From contig JAPHRE010000075.1 in the NCBI GenBank assembly GCA_026195905.1, forward strand, positions 1 to 32,862: a stretch of 32,862 bases of DNA, read 5' to 3'. A program made the position numbers and the translations under genes. The notes beneath the pieces were generated by a model. It was given only the letters and a program-made list of their open reading frames with translations, made no database searches and had not been told where the DNA came from. The DNA comes from Pseudopelagicola sp. GTDB taxonomy: Bacteria; Pseudomonadota; Alphaproteobacteria; Rhodobacterales; Rhodobacteraceae. Below are positions 5,472 to 12,965 of the stretch, one piece after another; position 1 is the stretch's first letter, and each line of letters starts with the position of its first letter.

Positions 5472-5548
5472 TGGTGGCGGTACAGGGACTTGAACCCCGG
5501 ACACGCGGATTATGATTCCGCTGCTCTAACCAACTGAGCTATACCGCC
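5472..5548 (-). tRNA. tRNA-Met (CAT), elongator
   Basis: 77 nt on the minus strand including an encoded CCA (5472-5474). The acceptor stem GGCGGTA pairs with TACCGCC, the D arm is AGCTCAGTTGGTTAGAGC, and the anticodon stem GCGGA/TCCGC encloses ATCATAA with anticodon CAT. The T arm is CGGGG TTCAAGT CCCTG with one G-T wobble. The anticodon arm matches the elongator tRNA-Met of alphaproteobacteria rather than initiator tRNA. A CAT-anticodon tRNA-Ile2 cannot be fully excluded, but the anticodon arm argues against it. Its 3' end faces the accessory segment to the left, the usual orientation for island integration. Confidence 0.94.
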
Positions 5549-5627: not shown

Positions 5628-6635
5628 TCAGGTGGTGGTTGCCGAGAAGGCATGTGGTGAGCTTCCGAACCTCTCGCGGAAGCGCCGCGAGAATTGCGTT
5701 GCCGAGGTGAAACCACAGGCCATCGCGACTTCGCCGACGGGCAGGTCCGTCTCGGCCAGAAGGGCGCGGGCGCGTTGCAGGCGCAGGTCGATGAGATAGC
5801 GTTTCGGCGTGCGCCCCACATGATGCGCAAACAGGCGCTCCATCTGACGGCGCGACACACCGGCCCGCTCGGCAACCTCATCAAGGCTGATCTCCTGGTC
5901 GATTTCCTCGTCGAAAATCCGCACGATCTCAAGCAGCCGCGCATTGCGCGCACCCAAAGTTGCCGCGCGCGAGATCATTTGGCTATCGGCATCCGAGCGT
6001 TGCACGGAATGCAGGCACATATTGAGCACCGCTTGGCTCAGAATGGGGCCGTGGCGATCATAGATCAGCTTTAGAAACAAATCGGTCGCCGCCGCCCCGC
6101 CCCCGCAGGTCATGATCCGCCCATCCACGACATAAAGCTGTTCGCGCAGATCAAGTTCGGGATAGCTTTCGCGGAAAGGCACCTGATTTTCCCAATGCAG
6201 CGTCACGCCGCGGCCCTTGAGAATCCCGGCGCGCGCCAGCGTATATGCCCCGGTGCAAAGCCCGCCAACCGTGCGGCCCGTGCGCCATTGGTAGCGTATC
6301 CAGTCGGCGGCTTTCCGCGAGGCCGCCTTTTCCGGCTCGACCCCGGAACACACAAACACATGCGCGCCCGCAGGCGTATCGCCCAGCGCGGCATCAACCG
6401 AAATCTCGACCCCGTTGGAACATTGCACCGGCGCGCCGTCTTGCGACATGGTGGTCCAACGATAGAGCACCCGCCCCGTCAGTTGGTTGGCAATCCGCAA
6501 CGGTTCAATCGCGGCCGAAAAAGCCAACATCGACAGGTTTGGCAACAGGAGAAAGACAAAATGCTCGGCCTCGGTCGTAGCTTCTGGACCAAGCTCGACA
6601 TGCGCGACGCCCTTCGGGATCAACCCATCACTCAT
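5628..6635 (-). CDS. GlxA/CdhR-type transcriptional regulator (DJ-1/PfpI domain + AraC HTH)
   Basis: 335 residues from ATG 6635, chosen for its GGGGA ribosome-binding site and for matching the family N-terminus. Residues about 20-200 form a DJ-1/PfpI-like domain (HFVFLLLPNLSMLAF; GGLCTGAYTLARAG, with the nucleophile-elbow cysteine; VTLHWENQVPF; ITCGGG-like MTCGGGAAATD). Residues about 235-330 form the AraC-type double helix-turn-helix (ISLDEVAERAGVSRRQMERL; LPVGEVAMACGFTSATQFSR). This family includes CdhR, GbdR and ArgR, which sense carnitine, betaine or amino-acid metabolites. It lies 74 bp downstream of the LysR gene on the same strand and may be co-transcribed with it. Control of the divergent lipid operon is plausible but unproven. 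Confidence 0.93.
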   Translation of the reverse strand: MSDGLIPKGVAHVELGPEATTEAEHFVFLLLPNLSMLAFSAAIEPLRIANQLTGRVLYRWTTMSQDGAPVQCSNGVEISVDAALGDTPAGAHVFVCSGVEPEKAASRKAADWIRYQWRTGRTVGGLCTGAYTLARAGILKGRGVTLHWENQVPFRESYPELDLREQLYVVDGRIMTCGGGAAATDLFLKLIYDRHGPILSQAVLNMCLHSVQRSDADSQMISRAATLGARNARLLEIVRIFDEEIDQEISLDEVAERAGVSRRQMERLFAHHVGRTPKRYLIDLRLQRARALLAETDLPVGEVAMACGFTSATQFSRRFRERFGSSPHAFSATTT

Positions 6636-6709
6636 TTGTGTTCCCCGTGCTTCCGACGCGCTACGATACTGACTTTTAGCATCGCACGGCAAGCCAAGAG
6701 ATGCACCCG

Positions 6710-7633
6710 TCACGATATCTCGTGCAGGAGCACGCTCGCCGTGGGCGGATGCGCCCGAAGCGCGGCCCGAAACCAGCCCATCGCCCGCTCTGGTCCGCGT
6801 TGCGAGCGCGACGCAAGCACCATTGGCAACGGTGCACCCATGTCAAACTCAATGACCTCAAATCGGCGGCGAAACGCATGGCTTTGCACAAAGGAATCAA
6901 CCACCACGCCAAGCGCATCCGTGCGCTCGATAATCCCCGAGGCCATCGGGAAATTTTCAAGGATATGCAACTGGCGCACCGGATCGCCTTCAAGGTGCTC
7001 GAACACTTCAAGGAGCGGCCAGACATGCGGCCCCGACAGGTCCGGTGAGATAATCGGATAGCGCGCCAACTCTGCCGCCGACACAGGCCGCCCGCTCAGG
7101 GGATGCCCCTTGCGGGCAAACATCCGCGCCCGCAGCGGCGGTAGAGGCTCGGTCACAAACCCGGCCTCGCGCATAAGCCCGTGCTCTGGGGCGATCAAAG
7201 TATCAAGATCGCCCTGCCGCAAGAGCTGCATTCCGGTCTCGAAGGACACGCCGCGCAGATGCACGCGCACCTTTGGGTGTTGTAGAACAAGGTGGCGCAC
7301 GGCACGGTTCATCAAGCCCTCAAGCGAGGACGGCGCAATCGCGATCCGCAAAACCCGGTCACGTGTCTCGCGCCCACTTTGGGCATCGCTGACAAGTTGG
7401 TCCATATCCGACAGGATGCGCGCGGCGCGGTCGATAAACCCCCGCCCGGCCACCGTCGCCACGACCCCACGGGCACGGCGATCAAAGATCGCAAAGCCAA
7501 GCTCGGCCTCGATATCGGCCACCGCCTTGGTCACGGCGGATTGCGTAATATGAAGATCGCGCGCCGCCGCCGAGATCGCCCCGGCCCGATCCACCGCAAG
7601 CACATAGCGCAGTTTGGTCAAGTTCACTGTCAA
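6710..7633 (-). CDS. LysR-family transcriptional regulator
   Basis: 307 residues from TTG at 7633; GTG at 7627 would give MNLTKLRYV, the more typical LysR N-terminus, and neither has a strong Shine-Dalgarno. Residues about 5-62 are the winged helix-turn-helix (AGAISAAARDLHITQSAVTK, then LGFAIFDRRARGV). The rest is the periplasmic-binding-like effector domain (VLRIAIAPSS...; LDTLIAPEHG). The gene is divergent from the thiolase operon with about 100 bp between them, the classic layout for a LysR protein controlling its neighbour in response to a pathway intermediate. A T-N11-A palindrome lies at 7639-7653. The effector is probably an acyl-CoA or fatty-acid-derived molecule (inference). Confidence 0.93.
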   Translation of the reverse strand: MTVNLTKLRYVLAVDRAGAISAAARDLHITQSAVTKAVADIEAELGFAIFDRRARGVVATVAGRGFIDRAARILSDMDQLVSDAQSGRETRDRVLRIAIAPSSLEGLMNRAVRHLVLQHPKVRVHLRGVSFETGMQLLRQGDLDTLIAPEHGLMREAGFVTEPLPPLRARMFARKGHPLSGRPVSAAELARYPIISPDLSGPHVWPLLEVFEHLEGDPVRQLHILENFPMASGIIERTDALGVVVDSFVQSHAFRRRFEVIEFDMGAPLPMVLASRSQRGPERAMGWFRAALRAHPPTASVLLHEIS

Positions 7634-7638
7634 AACCC

Positions 7639-7653
7639 ATTCTAAAAATGAAT
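7639..7653. promoter_or_regulatory. Candidate LysR operator (T-N11-A palindrome)
   Basis: The sequence ATTC-TAAAAAT-GAAT is a 15-bp palindrome containing the T-N11-A signature of LysR binding sites. It lies 6 bp upstream of the LysR start and about 80 bp before the thiolase start. A related half site, GAATTT, occurs near 7670. Confidence 0.35.
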
Positions 7654-7735
7654 ACCTAGCGACAATATAGAATTTGCCAGATGGCTAAGCGCAACCCCAT
7701 ACTTACCGCGAAACAGGGATTCGGGGAGGAAACCC

Positions 7736-8917
7736 ATGACCAAGACTATCGTTGCCGGCGTCGGCATGATCAAATTCGCCAAACCCGGTGCATCCGACAA
7801 CTATGACAAGATGGGCGCCGACGCGATCCGCGCCGCGCTTGCGGATTCCGGCTTGTCTTATGATGACATTCAGCAGGCCTATGCGGGCTATGTCTATGGG
7901 GATTCAACCTGTGGCCAAAAGGCGCTCTATCATGTCGGCATGACGGGCATCCCGGTCATCAACGTCAACAACAACTGTTCCACCGGCTCGACCGCGCTTT
8001 TCCTTGCGCGCCAGGCCATTGAACACGGCATCGCCGATTGCGTTCTCGCGGTTGGGTTCGAACAGATGCAGCGCGGCGCGCTTCAGAGCCACTGGACCGA
8101 CCGCCCAACGCCGTTTGACGATTTCGACCATGAAACCGACGTCCTTGTCGGCAATTCCCAAGTGCCTCTGGCGCTGCGCTATTTCGGCGGTGCGGGCAAA
8201 AGCCACATGGAAAAACACGGCACAGAGCTGCGGGATTTTGCCAAAATCCGCGCCAAGGCCTCGCGCCATGCAGTCAACAACCCCCTTGCCCTTTTCAACA
8301 CCGAAGTCAGCGAAGACGAGGTGATGAATGCCCCCTCCGTTTGGGACGGTGTGATGACCCGGCTTATGGCCTGTCCGCCGACCTGTGGCGGCGCGGCGGC
8401 GATCCTGTGCTCGGAAGACTTTGCGCAGAAGCACAACATCCCGACCACCGTGTCAATCGCCGGTCAGGCGATGACGACCGATTACCCCTCGACCTTTGAT
8501 GCGCATGACATGATTCAGGTCGTGGGCTACGACATGACCGCCGCCGCCGCGCAGCAGGTGCAGGAACAATCCGGCATCAGCATCAAAGATGTGGACGTGG
8601 TCGAGCTGCACGATTGCTTCGCCCATAACGAGTTGATCACCTACGAGGGTCTTGGCCTCTGTCCCGAAGGCGGGGCGCAGAAGTTCATCGCCGATGGCGA
8701 CAATACCTATGGCGGCAAATACGTCACCAACCCCTCTGGCGGGCTTCTGTCCAAGGGGCATCCGCTCGGCGCGACCGGCCTTGCGCAATGCTATGAGTTG
8801 ACCCATCAATTGCGCGGCACCGCCGATAAACGTCAGGTCGAGGGCGCGCGCACCGCGCTACAGCATAACCTCGGCCTTGGCGGCGCCTGTGTCGTGACCC
8901 TTTATCAGGCGGCGTGA
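7736..8917 (+). CDS. SCP-x-type 3-ketoacyl-CoA thiolase (lipid-transfer protein/thiolase)
   Basis: 393 residues, a full thiolase domain. It is close in motif order to the thiolase half of animal sterol carrier protein x: VINVNNNCSTGSTALFLARQ with the nucleophilic Cys81, ELHDCFAHNELITYEGLGL with His292 and Cys294, GGLLSKGHPLGATGLAQC with His342, and a terminal LQHNLGLGGACVVTLY. SCP-x cleaves 3-keto-2-methylacyl-CoA, including pristanoyl and bile-acid intermediates, releasing propionyl-CoA. The catalytic Cys is present, unlike in Ltp2-type aldolases. It is the first gene of a six-gene operon; the next gene starts 3 bp after its stop. GGGGAGG precedes the start at good spacing. The cellular location is cytoplasmic. 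Substrate breadth is inferred from the family and neighbours. Confidence 0.93.
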   Translation: MTKTIVAGVGMIKFAKPGASDNYDKMGADAIRAALADSGLSYDDIQQAYAGYVYGDSTCGQKALYHVGMTGIPVINVNNNCSTGSTALFLARQAIEHGIADCVLAVGFEQMQRGALQSHWTDRPTPFDDFDHETDVLVGNSQVPLALRYFGGAGKSHMEKHGTELRDFAKIRAKASRHAVNNPLALFNTEVSEDEVMNAPSVWDGVMTRLMACPPTCGGAAAILCSEDFAQKHNIPTTVSIAGQAMTTDYPSTFDAHDMIQVVGYDMTAAAAQQVQEQSGISIKDVDVVELHDCFAHNELITYEGLGLCPEGGAQKFIADGDNTYGGKYVTNPSGGLLSKGHPLGATGLAQCYELTHQLRGTADKRQVEGARTALQHNLGLGGACVVTLYQAA

Positions 8918-8920
8918 CGC

Positions 8921-9388
8921 ATGGGGATTTTTGATAGAAGCACGGCGGGGCATGTGACCCCGCCCGTTGAGGTCACGCTTGAGCGCCGCGCGGTTGCGTT
9001 CTTTGCCGAGACTATTGGTGAAACCAACCCGATCCATTTCGACATCGACGCCGCCCGCGCCGCCGGACACCCGGACCTGGTCGCCCCCGCGACCTACCCC
9101 GTGGTTGTCGGCACCTTCGCGGGCAAAGAGGCCGAACGCAAAGGCGAGACCGATCTCATTGCCCTAATCAAGGCCGATATGCGCCACCTGCTGCATGGCA
9201 CCGAGAACTATACCTATCACGGGGCGCTCTATGCCGGGGAAACCGTCACTGTCGAGAACGAGATTCTCGGGTTCGTCGATGCCAAGGGCGGCAAACTTGA
9301 GATCGCGCAGATCGCCACCCGCATTACCCATCCCACCCGCGGCCTCCTTATCGAGGCGAAACGCGATCTCATTCACGTTCTGGGCTAA
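8921..9388 (+). CDS. MaoC-like hydratase, FAS1-type N-terminal domain protein
   Basis: 155 residues with a single hot-dog fold of the MaoC N-terminal (FAS1-like dehydratase) kind. The hydratase segment reads FAETIGETNPIHFD (about residues 27-40), keeping the Asn-Pro-x-His core but with Glu where active R-hydratases have Asp. AGHPDLVAPATYPVV follows, and a PTRGLLIEAKRDLIHVL end closes the domain. In heteromeric MaoC enzymes such as mycobacterial ChsH1-ChsH2, one subunit is degenerate and serves substrate binding; this gene and the next may form such a pair. It starts 3 bp after the thiolase stop. Role: hydration of 2-enoyl-CoA in beta-oxidation, probably as a partner subunit (inference). Confidence 0.85.
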   Translation: MGIFDRSTAGHVTPPVEVTLERRAVAFFAETIGETNPIHFDIDAARAAGHPDLVAPATYPVVVGTFAGKEAERKGETDLIALIKADMRHLLHGTENYTYHGALYAGETVTVENEILGFVDAKGGKLEIAQIATRITHPTRGLLIEAKRDLIHVLG

Positions 9389-9400
9389 GGAGGCACTGCG

Positions 9401-9817
9401 ATGACCATGACCCCCGCAACCGCCAAACCCGGCGATACCATCCCGCCGCTGACCTTTGGCCCGATCTCACGCACTACGCTGGCGCTCTATGCCGGGGCGT
9501 CGGGCGATCATAATCCGATCCATATTGACCTTGATTTCGCCAAGGGCGCAGGGTTCGACGATGTGTTCGCCCACGGGATGCTCTCAATGGCGCAGCTTGG
9601 CCGCCTGGTGACCGATTGGGCCGGACAGGACAAGCTGGCCGCGCTCTCAACCCGCTTTACCGCCATCACCCCCGTCAACGCGACCGTGACCTGCGAAGGC
9701 ACTGTGACCGATACCGTGGAGAAAGACGGCGAAACCCTTTTGAAACTCACCCTGTCGGCCACAATTGATGACGGAACCCAAACCCTGAAAGGTGAAGCGC
9801 TCGTACGCACCGCCTGA
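9401..9817 (+). CDS. MaoC-like (R)-specific enoyl-CoA hydratase
   Basis: 138 residues, the second single hot-dog MaoC protein. The full hydratase-2 signature is visible: LALYAGASGDHNPIHID (about residues 27-43), with the catalytic Asp and His, then DDVFAHGMLSMAQLGRL. An AAGGAGG ribosome-binding site lies 7 bp before the ATG, and 12 bp separate it from the previous gene. It corresponds to the hydratase-2 domain of peroxisomal multifunctional enzyme 2. The expected reaction is hydration of trans-2-enoyl-CoA to (3R)-hydroxyacyl-CoA, the form an SDR-type dehydrogenase, also encoded in this operon, would oxidise. It probably works as a dimer with itself or with the upstream MaoC protein. Confidence 0.9.
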   Translation: MTMTPATAKPGDTIPPLTFGPISRTTLALYAGASGDHNPIHIDLDFAKGAGFDDVFAHGMLSMAQLGRLVTDWAGQDKLAALSTRFTAITPVNATVTCEGTVTDTVEKDGETLLKLTLSATIDDGTQTLKGEALVRTA

Positions 9818-9830
9818 GGAGGAGAACACC

Positions 9831-10979
9831 GTGCCCAACCATCTCTGGATGCAGGAAGACCACAAAGCCTTTGCCGACACGGTGAGCCGCTTCTTTGCCG
9901 AGGAAATCACCCCCAACAAGGACACCTGGACCAAGGCTGGCACTATCCCCAAATCGCTTTGGCGCAAGGCCGGCGCGCTTGGCATCCTTGGCGCGACCTT
10001 CCCCGAGGAACATGGCGGCCTTGGCCTGTCGCGCCATTTCGACGCCGTGACCTTCCTTGAACAGACCCGCGCCGGCGATAGCGGCTGGGGCATTTCGGTG
10101 CATAATATCGCCGCGCATTACATTTCGTCTTTCGGCACCGAGGAACAAAAAGCCCGCTGGCTGCCTGATCTGGCCTCGGGCGAAAAGGTCGCCGCGATTG
10201 CAATGACCGAACCCGGCACCGGGTCGGACCTTCAGGCGGTCAAAACCACCGCCATCAAGGACGGTAATGAATACCTCATAAACGGCTCCAAGACCTTTAT
10301 CACCAATGGCGCAAGCGCCGACCTGATCGTCCTCGTCGCCAAGACCGACCCCAAGGCCAAGGGCCGCGGCGTGTCGCTCATCGTGGTCGAAACCGAAGGC
10401 CTCGAAGGCTTCTCCGTGGGTCGTCGCCTCAAGAAAATGGGCATGAAGCGCAACGATACCGCCGAGCTTGCCTTTGAGGATGTGCGCGTGCCGCTGACCA
10501 ACCTGCTTGGCAGCGAAGAGGGCCAGGGCTTTATCCAACTGATGAAGCAGCTCCCGTGGGAGCGCCTTATCCTTGGATTCATGGCGCTCGGCGCCTCGGA
10601 ATGTGCGCTTGAAATGACGCTGGAGTATGTGCGCGAGCGCAAGGCCTTCGGCCAGCGGATCATGGATTTCCAAAACACCCGCTTCAAACTCGCCGAAGCG
10701 GCGACCAAAATCGAACTGCTTGCCGCCTTTGTCGATCAATGCCTTGCCGAGCTTGAGACCGGCACCCTGACGCCGGAAAAGGCCGCAATGGCCAAATGGT
10801 GGGGCACACAGACCCAATGCGAGATCATCGACGAATGCCTCCAGCTTTTCGGCGGCTATGGCTACATGCAGGAATATCCGATTTCCGAACTCTATACCGA
10901 CGCAAGGGTTCAGAAAATCTATGGCGGCACCAATGAAATCATGAAGGAACTGATCGCGCGCGGTCTGGATACGGACTAA
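9831..10979 (+). CDS. Acyl-CoA dehydrogenase, LCAD type
   Basis: 382 residues from GTG 9831, preceded by GAGGAGGAGAAC; an in-frame ATG at 9792 overlaps the previous gene and is unlikely. Family motifs are AMTEPGTGSDLQAV, KTFITNGASADL, RKAFGQRIMDFQ, LQLFGGYGYMQEYP and, at the C-terminus, IYGGTNEIMKELIAR. The usual MCAD catalytic Glu (YEGT) is Gly here. Instead Glu244 in QLPWERL occupies the position used by long-chain and isovaleryl-CoA dehydrogenases, and the IYGGTNEIMKELIAR tail matches vertebrate LCAD. LCAD accepts branched-chain acyl-CoAs, in line with the thiolase and racemase in this operon. The enzyme would introduce the alpha,beta double bond and pass electrons to ETF through FAD. Confidence 0.95.
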   Translation: MPNHLWMQEDHKAFADTVSRFFAEEITPNKDTWTKAGTIPKSLWRKAGALGILGATFPEEHGGLGLSRHFDAVTFLEQTRAGDSGWGISVHNIAAHYISSFGTEEQKARWLPDLASGEKVAAIAMTEPGTGSDLQAVKTTAIKDGNEYLINGSKTFITNGASADLIVLVAKTDPKAKGRGVSLIVVETEGLEGFSVGRRLKKMGMKRNDTAELAFEDVRVPLTNLLGSEEGQGFIQLMKQLPWERLILGFMALGASECALEMTLEYVRERKAFGQRIMDFQNTRFKLAEAATKIELLAAFVDQCLAELETGTLTPEKAAMAKWWGTQTQCEIIDECLQLFGGYGYMQEYPISELYTDARVQKIYGGTNEIMKELIARGLDTD

Positions 10980-11001
10980 GCGCCGATCAAGGGAGAGAAC
11001 A

Positions 11002-11826
11002 ATGGGAAAACTTGACGGAAAAACAGCCTATATCACCGGCGCTGGCAACGGGATTGGCCGCGCGGTGGCGCTCAAACTCGCCTCGGAAGGGGCCAATGTC
11101 GTGGTCAACGACCTAGAGGCCGATCCGGCAATGGCCGTTGTCGAAGAAATCACCGGCATGGGCGGACATGCCATCGCCGTGCCCGGCTCTGTGACCGAAC
11201 CGGGGTTCGCCGAACGCTTTATCGGGGCGGGAGTCGAGAAATGGAACGCCATCGACATCATCGTCAACAACGCGGGCTACACATGGGATAGCCTGATCGG
11301 CCATATGACCGACGACCAGTTTGATGCCATGATGGATGTGCACCTCAAAGCGCCATTCCGCATCCTGCGCGCCGCGTCCGGCTTTATCAAAGGGGCCGCC
11401 ACGCAAGAGGCCGAAGCCGGACAAGAGGTCTTTCGCAAGGTGGTCAATATCTCGTCCATCGCGGGCACGTCGGGCAATGTCGGACAGGCCAATTACTCCT
11501 CGGCCAAATCCGCCGTGCTTGGCCTGACCAAGACGCTGGCCAAGGAATGGGGCCGCTACAAGGTCAACGTCAACTGCGTCGCCTTTGGCTATATCGAAAC
11601 CCGCCTGACCGAGGCCACGGACGAGAAGAAAACGATTACCGTCGATGGCAACGAGGTCGGCATCGGCATTCCCAAAAAGGTCGCCGGGGGCTTTGCCTCA
11701 ATGGTGCCGCTCGGGCGTCCTGGCACGCCGCAAGAGGCTGCCGATGGCGTCTATCTCTTCTGCTGCCCGGAATCGAACTATGTCTCGGGCCAGACCCTGA
11801 TCGTCGGCGGCGGTCTGACAGGATGA
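11002..11826 (+). CDS. SDR-family (3R)-hydroxyacyl-CoA dehydrogenase-like protein
   Basis: 274 residues of classical short-chain dehydrogenase. It has TGAGNGIG (residues 13-20) for the cofactor, VVVNDLE with Asp37 favouring NAD+, NNAG (89-92), Ser151/152 in NISSIAG, and the YSSAK pair Tyr165/Lys169. A longer than usual loop before the serine (GAATQEAEAGQEV) resembles the SDR half of peroxisomal multifunctional enzyme 2 and mycobacterial steroid side-chain dehydrogenases. GGGAGAG precedes the ATG. Its TGA overlaps the ATG of the racemase gene. In context it would oxidise the (3R)-hydroxyacyl-CoA made by the MaoC hydratase. A FabG-like reductase role is the alternative. Confidence 0.9.
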   Translation: MGKLDGKTAYITGAGNGIGRAVALKLASEGANVVVNDLEADPAMAVVEEITGMGGHAIAVPGSVTEPGFAERFIGAGVEKWNAIDIIVNNAGYTWDSLIGHMTDDQFDAMMDVHLKAPFRILRAASGFIKGAATQEAEAGQEVFRKVVNISSIAGTSGNVGQANYSSAKSAVLGLTKTLAKEWGRYKVNVNCVAFGYIETRLTEATDEKKTITVDGNEVGIGIPKKVAGGFASMVPLGRPGTPQEAADGVYLFCCPESNYVSGQTLIVGGGLTG

Positions 11827-12914
11827 GCGCGGGCATGCTTTCCGGGATCCGTATCGTCGAAATCGAAGGGCTTGGCCCCGGCCCCTTCGCCGCTATGACG
11901 CTGGCCGACCTTGGCGCAGATGTCATCGTGATTCATCGTAAAGGCAAATCCGGGCAAGTCACCGCCGAAGCCTCGCTTCTGGATCGGGGCAAACGCTCGA
12001 TCGCGCTTGACCTCAAAGACCCCGACGACATTGCCACGGCCAAGGCGCTCATCGCGCGCGCCGATGGCCTGATTGAGGGCTTTCGCCCCGGAGTCATGGA
12101 GCGTCTTGGCCTCGGCCCCGACGCCTGTCACGCCGAGAACCCTGCCCTTGTCTATGGCCGTATGACCGGCTGGGGACAGGACGGCCCGCGTGCCCATACG
12201 GCGGGCCATGACCTCAACTATATCGCCACCTCCGGCGCGCTGCATTACGCCTCGGAACCCGGCTCTCCTCCGATGACGCCTGCCACGCTTGTCGGAGATA
12301 TCGGCGGCGGGGCGCTCTATCTCATGGTGGGGATGCTCTCGGGCATCCTCAAAGCCCGCGCCACCGGCCAAGGCACGGTGGTCGACGCCGCCATCGTCGA
12401 TGGCTCGGCACATATGATGGGCCTCTTGATGGCGATCCGCCAATCGGGTCAACTGGTGGATGACCGGGGCCAGAGCCTTCTGGATGGGCCGCATTGGTCG
12501 CGCAGCTACCCTTGTGCCGATGGCGGCTATATCTCGGTGCAATGCCTCGAGCCGCAATTCTACGCGCTGTTTCTTGAAACCCTCGGCCTCTCGGACGATC
12601 CCGAGTTCAAACGCCAACTCGACAAGACGCTCTGGACCAAGCTTACCGCGCGGCTTGAGGATATCTTTGCCGCCGAACCCCGCAGCCATTGGGCCGCGCT
12701 CTTTGAAGGCTCCGACGCCTGCGTCGCGCCCGTGCTCTCACCGGGCGAGGCCGCGGCCGATCCGCATATGAGCGCGCGCGGCGTGTGGACGAACGCAAAC
12801 GACACCCTGCAACCGATGCCCGCGCCCCGCTTTGACGGTGTGACCGGGCCGCTCAATCCACCCTGCACACGCGGAGAACACAGCGACGAAATCCTCGCGG
12901 AACTGGGTCTCTAG
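11823..12914 (+). CDS. Alpha-methylacyl-CoA racemase (CoA-transferase family III fold)
   Basis: 363 residues from ATG 11823, which overlaps the SDR stop (ATGA); the open frame extends far upstream, but that part lies inside the SDR gene. Markers of the racemase branch of the CaiB/BaiF family are the N-terminal LSGIRIVEIEGLGPGPF, YGRMTGWGQDGP, His129 in AGHDLNYIA and Asp159 in VGDIGGGALYL, equivalent to the His/Asp acid-base pair of mycobacterial MCR and human AMACR. The family epimerises (2R)- to (2S)-methylacyl-CoA so that acyl-CoA dehydrogenase can act. It is the last gene of the operon, followed by a strong hairpin. A true CoA-transferase is unlikely because the racemase residues are intact. 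Confidence 0.93.
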   Translation: MSAGMLSGIRIVEIEGLGPGPFAAMTLADLGADVIVIHRKGKSGQVTAEASLLDRGKRSIALDLKDPDDIATAKALIARADGLIEGFRPGVMERLGLGPDACHAENPALVYGRMTGWGQDGPRAHTAGHDLNYIATSGALHYASEPGSPPMTPATLVGDIGGGALYLMVGMLSGILKARATGQGTVVDAAIVDGSAHMMGLLMAIRQSGQLVDDRGQSLLDGPHWSRSYPCADGGYISVQCLEPQFYALFLETLGLSDDPEFKRQLDKTLWTKLTARLEDIFAAEPRSHWAALFEGSDACVAPVLSPGEAAADPHMSARGVWTNANDTLQPMPAPRFDGVTGPLNPPCTRGEHSDEILAELGL

Positions 12915-12932: not shown

Positions 12933-12965
12933 ACGGCCCGAAATCCATCATAGATTTCGGGCCGT
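12933..12965. terminator. Bidirectional terminator between the racemase gene and hemE
   Basis: A perfect 13-bp stem, ACGGCCCGAAATC (12933-12945) and GATTTCGGGCCGT (12953-12965), with a 7-nt loop. It lies between convergent genes. On the minus strand it is followed by TTTTCTTT, so it is a good intrinsic terminator for hemE; for the plus operon the T run is weak. Confidence 0.85.

Follow-up and report, generated by a model that had tools for sequence, protein, structure and literature searches.

A compact operon of six plus-strand genes, at positions 7736–12914 of a 32,862-nucleotide stretch of Pseudopelagicola sp. DNA (contig JAPHRE010000075.1, G000:C50 in our numbering and hereafter the window), probably encodes an inducible pathway for the catabolism of acyl-CoAs with a methyl (or another alkyl) branch at C2, a pathway that would run through a (3R)-hydroxy intermediate and end in propionyl-CoA. 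The host, a Shimia-group roseobacter, is represented by a draft genome of 3.06 Mb that is 97.4% complete. In order, their products are an SCP2-type thiolase, a pair of MaoC proteins (MaoC1 and MaoC2), an acyl-CoA dehydrogenase (ACAD), a short-chain dehydrogenase/reductase (SDR) and an AMACR-type racemase, and the genes are separated by gaps of 3, 12, 13, 22 and −4 bases; their Pfam/NCBIfam names are thiolase, FAS1_DH_region, MaoC_dehydratas, Acyl-CoA_dh, adh_short and CoA_transf_3. Coordinates, strand and families all agree with the original prediction, which had described six tightly packed genes equivalent to the peroxisomal 2-methyl-branched-chain beta-oxidation of animals. Of that equivalence, a racemase-containing beta-oxidation operon stands, on the strength of families, catalytic residues and cross-phylum synteny, while the parallels drawn to the MFE-2 hydratase, the MFE-2 SDR and the peroxisomal oxidase do not. 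The operon is real and conserved, and it constitutes a new arrangement of known kinds of enzymes; the titles and abstract openings listed by searches of the open-licence literature include no paper on it.

In the proposed sequence of reactions, the racemase would equilibrate the 2R and 2S acyl-CoA thioesters, the dehydrogenase would form the 2-enoyl-CoA and pass its electrons to electron-transfer flavoprotein (ETF), and the MaoC1-MaoC2 pair, through its catalytic MaoC2 subunit, would hydrate the product to a (3R)-hydroxyacyl-CoA. The SDR would then oxidise this intermediate with NAD, and the thiolase would split the resulting 2-methyl-3-oxoacyl-CoA into propionyl-CoA and a chain three carbons shorter. 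As substrate we envisage an isoprenoid or other branched aliphatic acid, which a ligase from outside the operon would activate. Families corresponding to all five activities are found in the unit, and the methylmalonyl-CoA mutase family has two matches in the host genome; we infer the individual enzymatic steps, their stereochemistry, the inducibility of the operon and its control by a LysR-type regulator from sequence.

The first gene (7736–8917, plus strand) encodes a 3-oxoacyl-CoA thiolase similar to the thiolase domain of SCP-x, which matches the “lipid-transfer protein” model PRK08256 at 682 bits (cut-off 436) and the structure of an SCP2-thiolase type-1 (6hsj) at E=1.7e-138. It displays the residues expected of an SCP2-type thiolase, namely a nucleophilic Cys81, an HDCF motif (His292/Cys294) and a C-terminal His342 within SKGHPLG; the Cys81/His292/His342 set, already read as intact, is kept in 100/100 aligned rows, query included, and Cys294 in 99/100, the rows being drawn from a set of loci that includes certain genomes more than once, each at two loci. 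Its predicted substrate is a 2-methyl-3-oxoacyl-CoA. Pfam detects no SCP2 lipid-binding domain in the thiolase operon. The steroid aldolases Sal and Ltp2, which work with a DUF35 partner, share an SCP-2-thiolase-like fold but are described, in the portion of PMC12329534 drawn on here, as devoid of the thiolase Cys and HDCF. As the operon enzyme has both Cys81 and HDCF, and as none of the six operon proteins contains a DUF35 domain by Pfam, a Ltp2/Sal identity is ruled out and the enzyme is a thiolase by its residues. At one of two other catabolic loci of the host considered as additional components of the pathway (L017, G000:C42, 7203–9239), a second SCP2-type thiolase (72% identity) is paired with an SDR (61%); the pair adjoins carboxylase-type, enoyl-CoA hydratase-type and dehydrogenase genes, as read from their translations, and shares 77% DNA identity over 2 kb with the Pseudosulfitobacter plasmid pSMR1-4. 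Since a paralogue of this kind (71–72%) is listed for only G000, G297 and G301 among 25 genus genomes, the operon does not depend on a second thiolase.

At the other end of the operon (11823–12914, plus strand), the racemase is predicted to act on 2-methylacyl-CoAs in the manner of AMACR and MCR. It matches Mycobacterium tuberculosis MCR (1x74) at E=3e-101, compared with 3.1e-33 for the best class III CoA-transferase, and these scores together with the catalytic bases rule out a class III CoA-transferase. The bases of MCR are a His126-Glu241 pair and Asp156 (PMC8142540, in part), to which His129, Glu243 and Asp159 of the operon protein correspond. All three are kept in 73/73 relatives of at least 42% identity and, across all 82 rows, His129 is found in 75, Asp159 in 82 and Glu243 in 75; the intact His129 and Asp159 of the original prediction are hence confirmed and joined by a third residue.

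Hydration appears to be entrusted to a split enzyme. MaoC2 (9401–9817, plus strand) is a HadB-like, catalytic (R)-enoyl-CoA hydratase subunit whose Asp36 and His41 are kept in 60/60 rows. MaoC1 (8921–9388, plus strand) is a hot-dog protein of the HadA/ChsH kind with Glu34 in place of the catalytic Asp. Among its 61 rows, position 34 is Glu in 36, Ala in 9, Gln in 9 and Leu in 7 and is never Asp, and position 39 is His in 31 and Tyr in 30; the dyad is therefore not kept, and MaoC1 is presumed to be the non-catalytic partner of MaoC2. An AlphaFold2 model of MaoC1 (pLDDT 95.3) has its top fold matches among HadBD and HadAB dehydratase chains, MaoC1 being only 16–21% identical to those Had and ChsH chains, while a profile search returns double MaoC proteins and Had subunits, and a scan of viral contigs returned no MaoC1 relatives. 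Adjacent genes thus supply one catalytic and one non-catalytic hot-dog protein, as expected of a split hydratase, and the two may assemble as a heterodimer, a proposal that goes beyond the single-chain model. The label of MFE-2 hydratase-2 given earlier is not borne out: MaoC1 matches FAS1_DH_region in Pfam and not PF22622, the MFE-2_hydrat-2_N domain of the fused MaoC hydratases, so that the operon hydratase is split, HadA/HadB-like and endowed with a single catalytic subunit. A fused PF22622 protein, of the MFE-2 hydratase type, is encoded elsewhere in the host genome (L018, 6200–7057). The juxtaposition of non-catalytic and catalytic hot-dog genes is shared with the HadA-HadB (3R)-hydroxyacyl-(acyl carrier protein) dehydratase and the ChsH1-ChsH2 hydratase; in comparison with these, the operon pair would, by its context, act on CoA thioesters in catabolism, and it has no DUF35 domain.

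The SDR (11002–11826, plus strand), a putative (3R)-hydroxyacyl-CoA dehydrogenase, harbors Ser152, Tyr165 and Lys169 as well as Asp37, kept in 63/63 rows, whose position at the NAD site presumably favours NAD. Its designation as MFE-2-like proved too specific, as FabG-type reductases outscore human MFE-2: a profile of 25 orthologues gives 207.9 bits to the FabG-like 7sub and 144.3 to human MFE-2 (1zbq). The list for that profile is topped, at 274.7 bits, by the fungal MFE-2 entry 2et6, which has two SDR domains; with the single SDR as query, these domains score about 100 bits each against 152.7 for 7sub. With no PF22622 in the hydratase and SDR scores in favour of FabG, MFE-2 membership was rejected for both enzymes.

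The ACAD (9831–10979, plus strand) is of the long-chain/isovaleryl-CoA dehydrogenase (LCAD/IVD) type, and its start is best placed at a GTG codon at 9831, directly behind the ribosome-site-like GAGGAGGAG. Its best solved relative is human LCAD (8w0t, E=8.3e-110), whose catalytic helix-G residue is Glu291 (PMC11153573, in part); the corresponding Glu244 is kept in 58/58 relatives of at least 45% identity and in 70/75 rows overall. The description as an LCAD-type dehydrogenase holds, in that the nearest relative is the mitochondrial LCAD. The peroxisomal parallel fails at this step, where animal peroxisomes use an oxidase.

Animal peroxisomal 2-methyl-branched-chain beta-oxidation is carried out by AMACR, ACOX2/3, MFE-2 and SCP-x. 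The operon resembles it in its racemase and SCP2-type thiolase families, both with their catalytic residues, and presumably also in the (3R)-hydroxy intermediate and the propionyl-CoA product. It differs in having a dehydrogenase instead of an oxidase, a split HadAB-like hydratase, a separate FabG-like SDR and, by Pfam, no SCP2 lipid-binding domain, and in that everything is gathered in one operon. A second comparison is offered by the Mcr-dependent catabolism of isoprenoids and rubber in actinobacteria, with which the operon shares an MCR-type racemase (E about 1e-101), here the last of six genes in a marine alphaproteobacterium; PMC8538451, citing an older paper, states that the ability to grow on rubber and on isoprenoids with methyl branches is lost in mcr mutants.

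The gene set is not a matter of local chance. The thiolase is present at no less than 79% identity in 25/25 genus-group genomes searched, host included, and its nearest named relatives, within the best 80 of 571 confirmed thiolase loci in named genomes, belong to a Rhodobacteraceae metagenome-assembled genome (93%), Shimia thalassica (91%) and other Shimia, S. sagamensis among them (85%). Of 14 loci fetched out of the 24 other genus genomes, 14/14 have the thiolase and both MaoC genes; the ACAD and racemase are found in 13/14 (the contig of the fourteenth ends), the SDR in 11/14 (two lack it and one contig ends) and hemE nearby in 11/14. Across the class, a thiolase match (E<=1e-150) is found in 22/385 genomes. 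Partner genes were counted at the same best 80 thiolase loci if a match exceeding a set identity lay no more than 6 kb away and on the strand of the thiolase; these loci come from unevenly sampled genomes and in some cases from short contigs. The full set recurs: all five partners accompany the thiolase at 11 of these loci, all in Rhodobacteraceae. Partial sets are frequent, with MaoC1, MaoC2 and SDR only at 19 loci, ACAD and AMACR only at 22, MaoC1, MaoC2, SDR and ACAD at 4, MaoC1 and MaoC2 at 3, ACAD at 2 and four single other cases; the MaoC1-MaoC2 pair stands beside the thiolase at 38 loci in total. As 20 of the 22 ACAD-AMACR sets are from Massilia, with one each from Telluria and Undibacterium, this arrangement is close to a single lineage. 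The original prediction had found no ligase gene nearby, which holds for the six genes and the scanned neighbours of the window; elsewhere ligases do adjoin the same genes, an acyl-CoA ligase-type gene lying close to related loci in Bradyrhizobium, Emcibacter, another alphaproteobacterium and Hydrogenophaga. At L180 (G189), the genes after MaoC1-MaoC2-SDR specify an ABC transporter of the branched-chain type, a ligase, a binding protein and an AMACR (70%); upstream of MaoC1-MaoC2-SDR, at 2095–2480, is an SCP2-type thiolase that appears internally deleted, by decay or by assembly.

Relatives of the operon are also carried by plasmids. Thiolase matches (E<=1e-150) occur in 80 plasmid records, of which one was examined, and MaoC2 matches (E<=1e-25) in 25, of which four were. 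On a plasmid of Rhodococcus sp. AQ5-07 the order is thiolase (62%), MaoC1 (35%), MaoC2 (53%), SDR (61%), ACAD (51%) and AMACR (48%), and genes for a long-chain acyl-CoA ligase and a hydrolase lie beyond them; on pRJH3 of R. pyridinivorans YC-JH2 the first five are consecutive and AMACR (45%) follows four genes later, with ligases and a lipase-family gene near the set; and on a plasmid of Cupriavidus oxalaticus T2 all six are adjacent (31–62%), again with ligases near. At 31–62% identity, all three sets retain the thiolase Cys/His/His, the racemase His/Asp/Glu, the MaoC2 Asp/His, the SDR Asp/Ser/Tyr/Lys and the ACAD helix-G Glu, and this distant conservation supports one functional unit. In their MaoC1, position 39 is Tyr rather than His, and position 34 is again not Asp. 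The plasmid sets differ from the operon in the acyl-CoA ligases near all three, in the lipase/hydrolase genes and TetR-type regulators near the Rhodococcus sets, in an enoyl-CoA hydratase near two and in a Phe where the operon ACAD has Trp86; the annotation shown names no substrate. A plasmid of Rhodococcus sp. ZPP carries the thiolase, MaoC1, MaoC2 and SDRs, with no AMACR in the stretch shown. In the host itself, the other catabolic locus considered as a source of additional components (L018/L019, G000:C79) bears a branched-chain-type ABC transporter, an AMP-binding ligase, several dehydrogenases, CoA-transferases and the fused MFE-2-type hydratase; L019 is about 71% identical in DNA to pSMR1-4, where an alkane 1-monooxygenase is annotated nearby, and L018 matches that plasmid weakly and by translation only.

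Several observations weigh against a single six-gene pathway for branched acids. No ligase, transporter or ETF gene is found among the six, no partner stands beside the thiolase at 15 of the best 80 loci, and the two genus genomes that lack the SDR at the locus hold no close SDR at another site, their best matches being 35 and 37% identical. MaoC1 is detected in 15/295 family genomes (E<=0.001) and, at 52% identity or above, in 5/295, three of them outside the genus, making it rarer than AMACR. In G282 (L064), MaoC1-MaoC2-ACAD-AMACR lies next to hemE, and the genome yields neither a match to the SCP2-type thiolase (E<=1e-30) nor a close SDR. The racemase is itself commoner than the operon, as an orthologue (E<=1e-110) occurs in 67/295 family genomes and often without the other five genes: in 6/20 fetched AMACR loci (of 68 matches), all from other Rhodobacteraceae (L179, L181, L182, L185, L188 and L191), it neighbours hemE with the other five absent, and it stands alone at other sites in several more of the 20. 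AMACR may have a role of its own, and its five partners could have been added at hemE or lost elsewhere. Finally, the ACAD lacks the proline that enlarges the LCAD pocket, which limits the bulk that may be supposed for a branched chain and speaks against the bulkiest substrates.

This raises the question as to whether the operon serves a generic (R)-specific beta-oxidation of straight chains, with AMACR as an older neighbour of hemE engaged in separate work. MaoC and FabG-like enzymes take part in straight-chain metabolism too, and the 19 thiolase-MaoC1-MaoC2-SDR loci without close ACAD and AMACR, like the breadth of AMACR in the family, would fit such a reading. We nevertheless consider it unlikely, since AMACR and the SCP2-type thiolase are reunited in Massilia and its relatives, and again on the Rhodococcus and Cupriavidus plasmids, with no hemE annotated in the Massilia-type or plasmid stretches; the helix-G Glu of the ACAD, placed as in LCAD, also argues for the branched-chain pathway.

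More doubtful still is the degradation of sterol or bile-acid side chains, in which the operon would shorten C8 or C5 chains in the manner of AMACR, MFE-2 and SCP-x during bile-acid synthesis. In animals SCP2-type thiolase and AMACR perform such chemistry, and the Hydrogenophaga relative of the module includes PimC/PimD-like paired dehydrogenases. The human LCAD pocket can hold THC-CoA, and its room for branched and sterol substrates is tied to Pro132, which unwinds helix E (both from part of PMC11153573). The operon ACAD has Trp86 at the Pro132 position, so that this mechanism gives no indication of a pocket of sterol size; Trp is found at that position in 25/25 relatives of at least 75% identity, and in 58 relatives of at least 45% the residue is Trp in 27, Phe in 27, Thr in 2, Ser in 1 and Pro in 1. 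On sequence grounds, this substitution is the main result against the sterol option of the original prediction. Sterol side chains are also unlikely because KshA (PF19298) has no match in the 97.4% complete draft, with the limit that none of 14 control genomes exceeds the cut-off either, which makes for a weak control, and because the six genes include no DUF35 domain and a thiolase with other residues than Sal/Ltp2.

A short-chain branched route, for example for 2-methylbutyryl-CoA from isoleucine or alloisoleucine, would use an identical order of dehydrogenase, hydratase, SDR and 2-methyl-3-oxoacyl thiolase, and AMACR could admit either enantiomer; it is nonetheless very improbable, given that the ACAD is nearest to human LCAD, that the plasmid relatives adjoin genes annotated as long-chain acyl-CoA ligases, and that the thiolase is in all genus genomes searched but a close MaoC1 in few family genomes, unlike a core amino-acid route. 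Least credible is a synthetic direction, in which HadAB- and FabG-like parts, which serve synthesis elsewhere, would run beta-oxidation in reverse to build branched acyl or hydroxyacyl groups, as it is at odds with the FAD-dependent dehydrogenase, the invariant NAD-type Asp37 of the SDR, the ligases beside relatives and the fact that Pfam/NCBIfam assign none of the six genes to a synthase, carrier protein or thioesterase.

For the branched-acid pathway that we prefer, the nature of the substrate can be narrowed in part. The branched and isoprenoid options of the earlier proposal (phytol/pristanate, isoprenoids or sterol side chains) are kept; the sterol option falls back, and there is no sign of the animal phytanate route, since PhyH (PF05721) has 0 matches in the host draft genome and was present in 1/14 control genomes. 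Isoprenoid-type, branched or synthetic 2-alkyl acids such as 2-ethylhexanoate are candidate substrates, with sterols ranked low. An inhibitor was used to show that Gordonia GONU employs beta-oxidation for growth on 2-ethylhexanoate (PMC10333787, in part); the main text of that paper has no mention of a racemase, MaoC, lipid transfer, acyl-CoA dehydrogenase, enoyl-CoA or CoA ligase, and we speculate that operons of this type could handle the acid. In a broader picture, to which we would give slightly less than an even chance, two sub-modules (thiolase-ACAD-AMACR and thiolase-HadAB-like-SDR) may have combined into a self-contained, horizontally spread pathway for 2-alkyl-branched acids, both isoprenoid and synthetic, in Alpha- and Betaproteobacteria and Rhodococcus. 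If true, the operon would provide a gene signature for the use of methyl-branched acids (chlorophyll side chains, isoprenoids, branched pollutants) by marine and soil bacteria, as well as a tractable bacterial counterpart of the human peroxisomal pathway; the split hydratase and plasmid-borne relatives make the substrate question testable.

The operon had been described as controlled by divergent regulators, which is accurate for one of two genes. A LysR-type regulator (6710–7633, minus strand) is divergent and is likely to regulate the operon. Behind it, with a 4-base overlap, trails a GbdR/GlxA-like AraC regulator (5628–6713, minus strand) whose link to the operon is uncertain; it scores 312.7 bits against the GbdR model, below the cut-off of 480, and among 20 related loci, some on contigs that end nearby, AraC is present in 5 and LysR in 12. 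The candidate promoter region shared with LysR (7639–7703, plus strand), delineated by eye after the window had been aligned to 22 related upstream regions, contains an ATTC-N7-GAAT inverted repeat at 7639–7653, a conserved GAATTTG at 7670–7676 and a CATACT −10-like box at 7698–7703. Most LysR-bearing loci share with the window the inverted repeat (ATTCC-N5-GGAAT), TTGAATTTG and the CATACT-like box, while loci without a LysR match (L055, L056, L058, L061, L067, L081 and L087) mostly have other sequences upstream; LysR may bind the inverted repeat. A promoter scan gave sites no more numerous than in shuffles, and a terminator scan gave 7 terminator-like sites against a shuffle mean of 5.0, about as many. 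Between the operon and hemE lies a 15-pair stem-loop (12933–12965, minus strand), terminator-like and with a T-rich tail on the minus strand. Downstream of the AraC regulator, the window holds a tRNA-Met (cat) gene at 5472–5548 on the minus strand.

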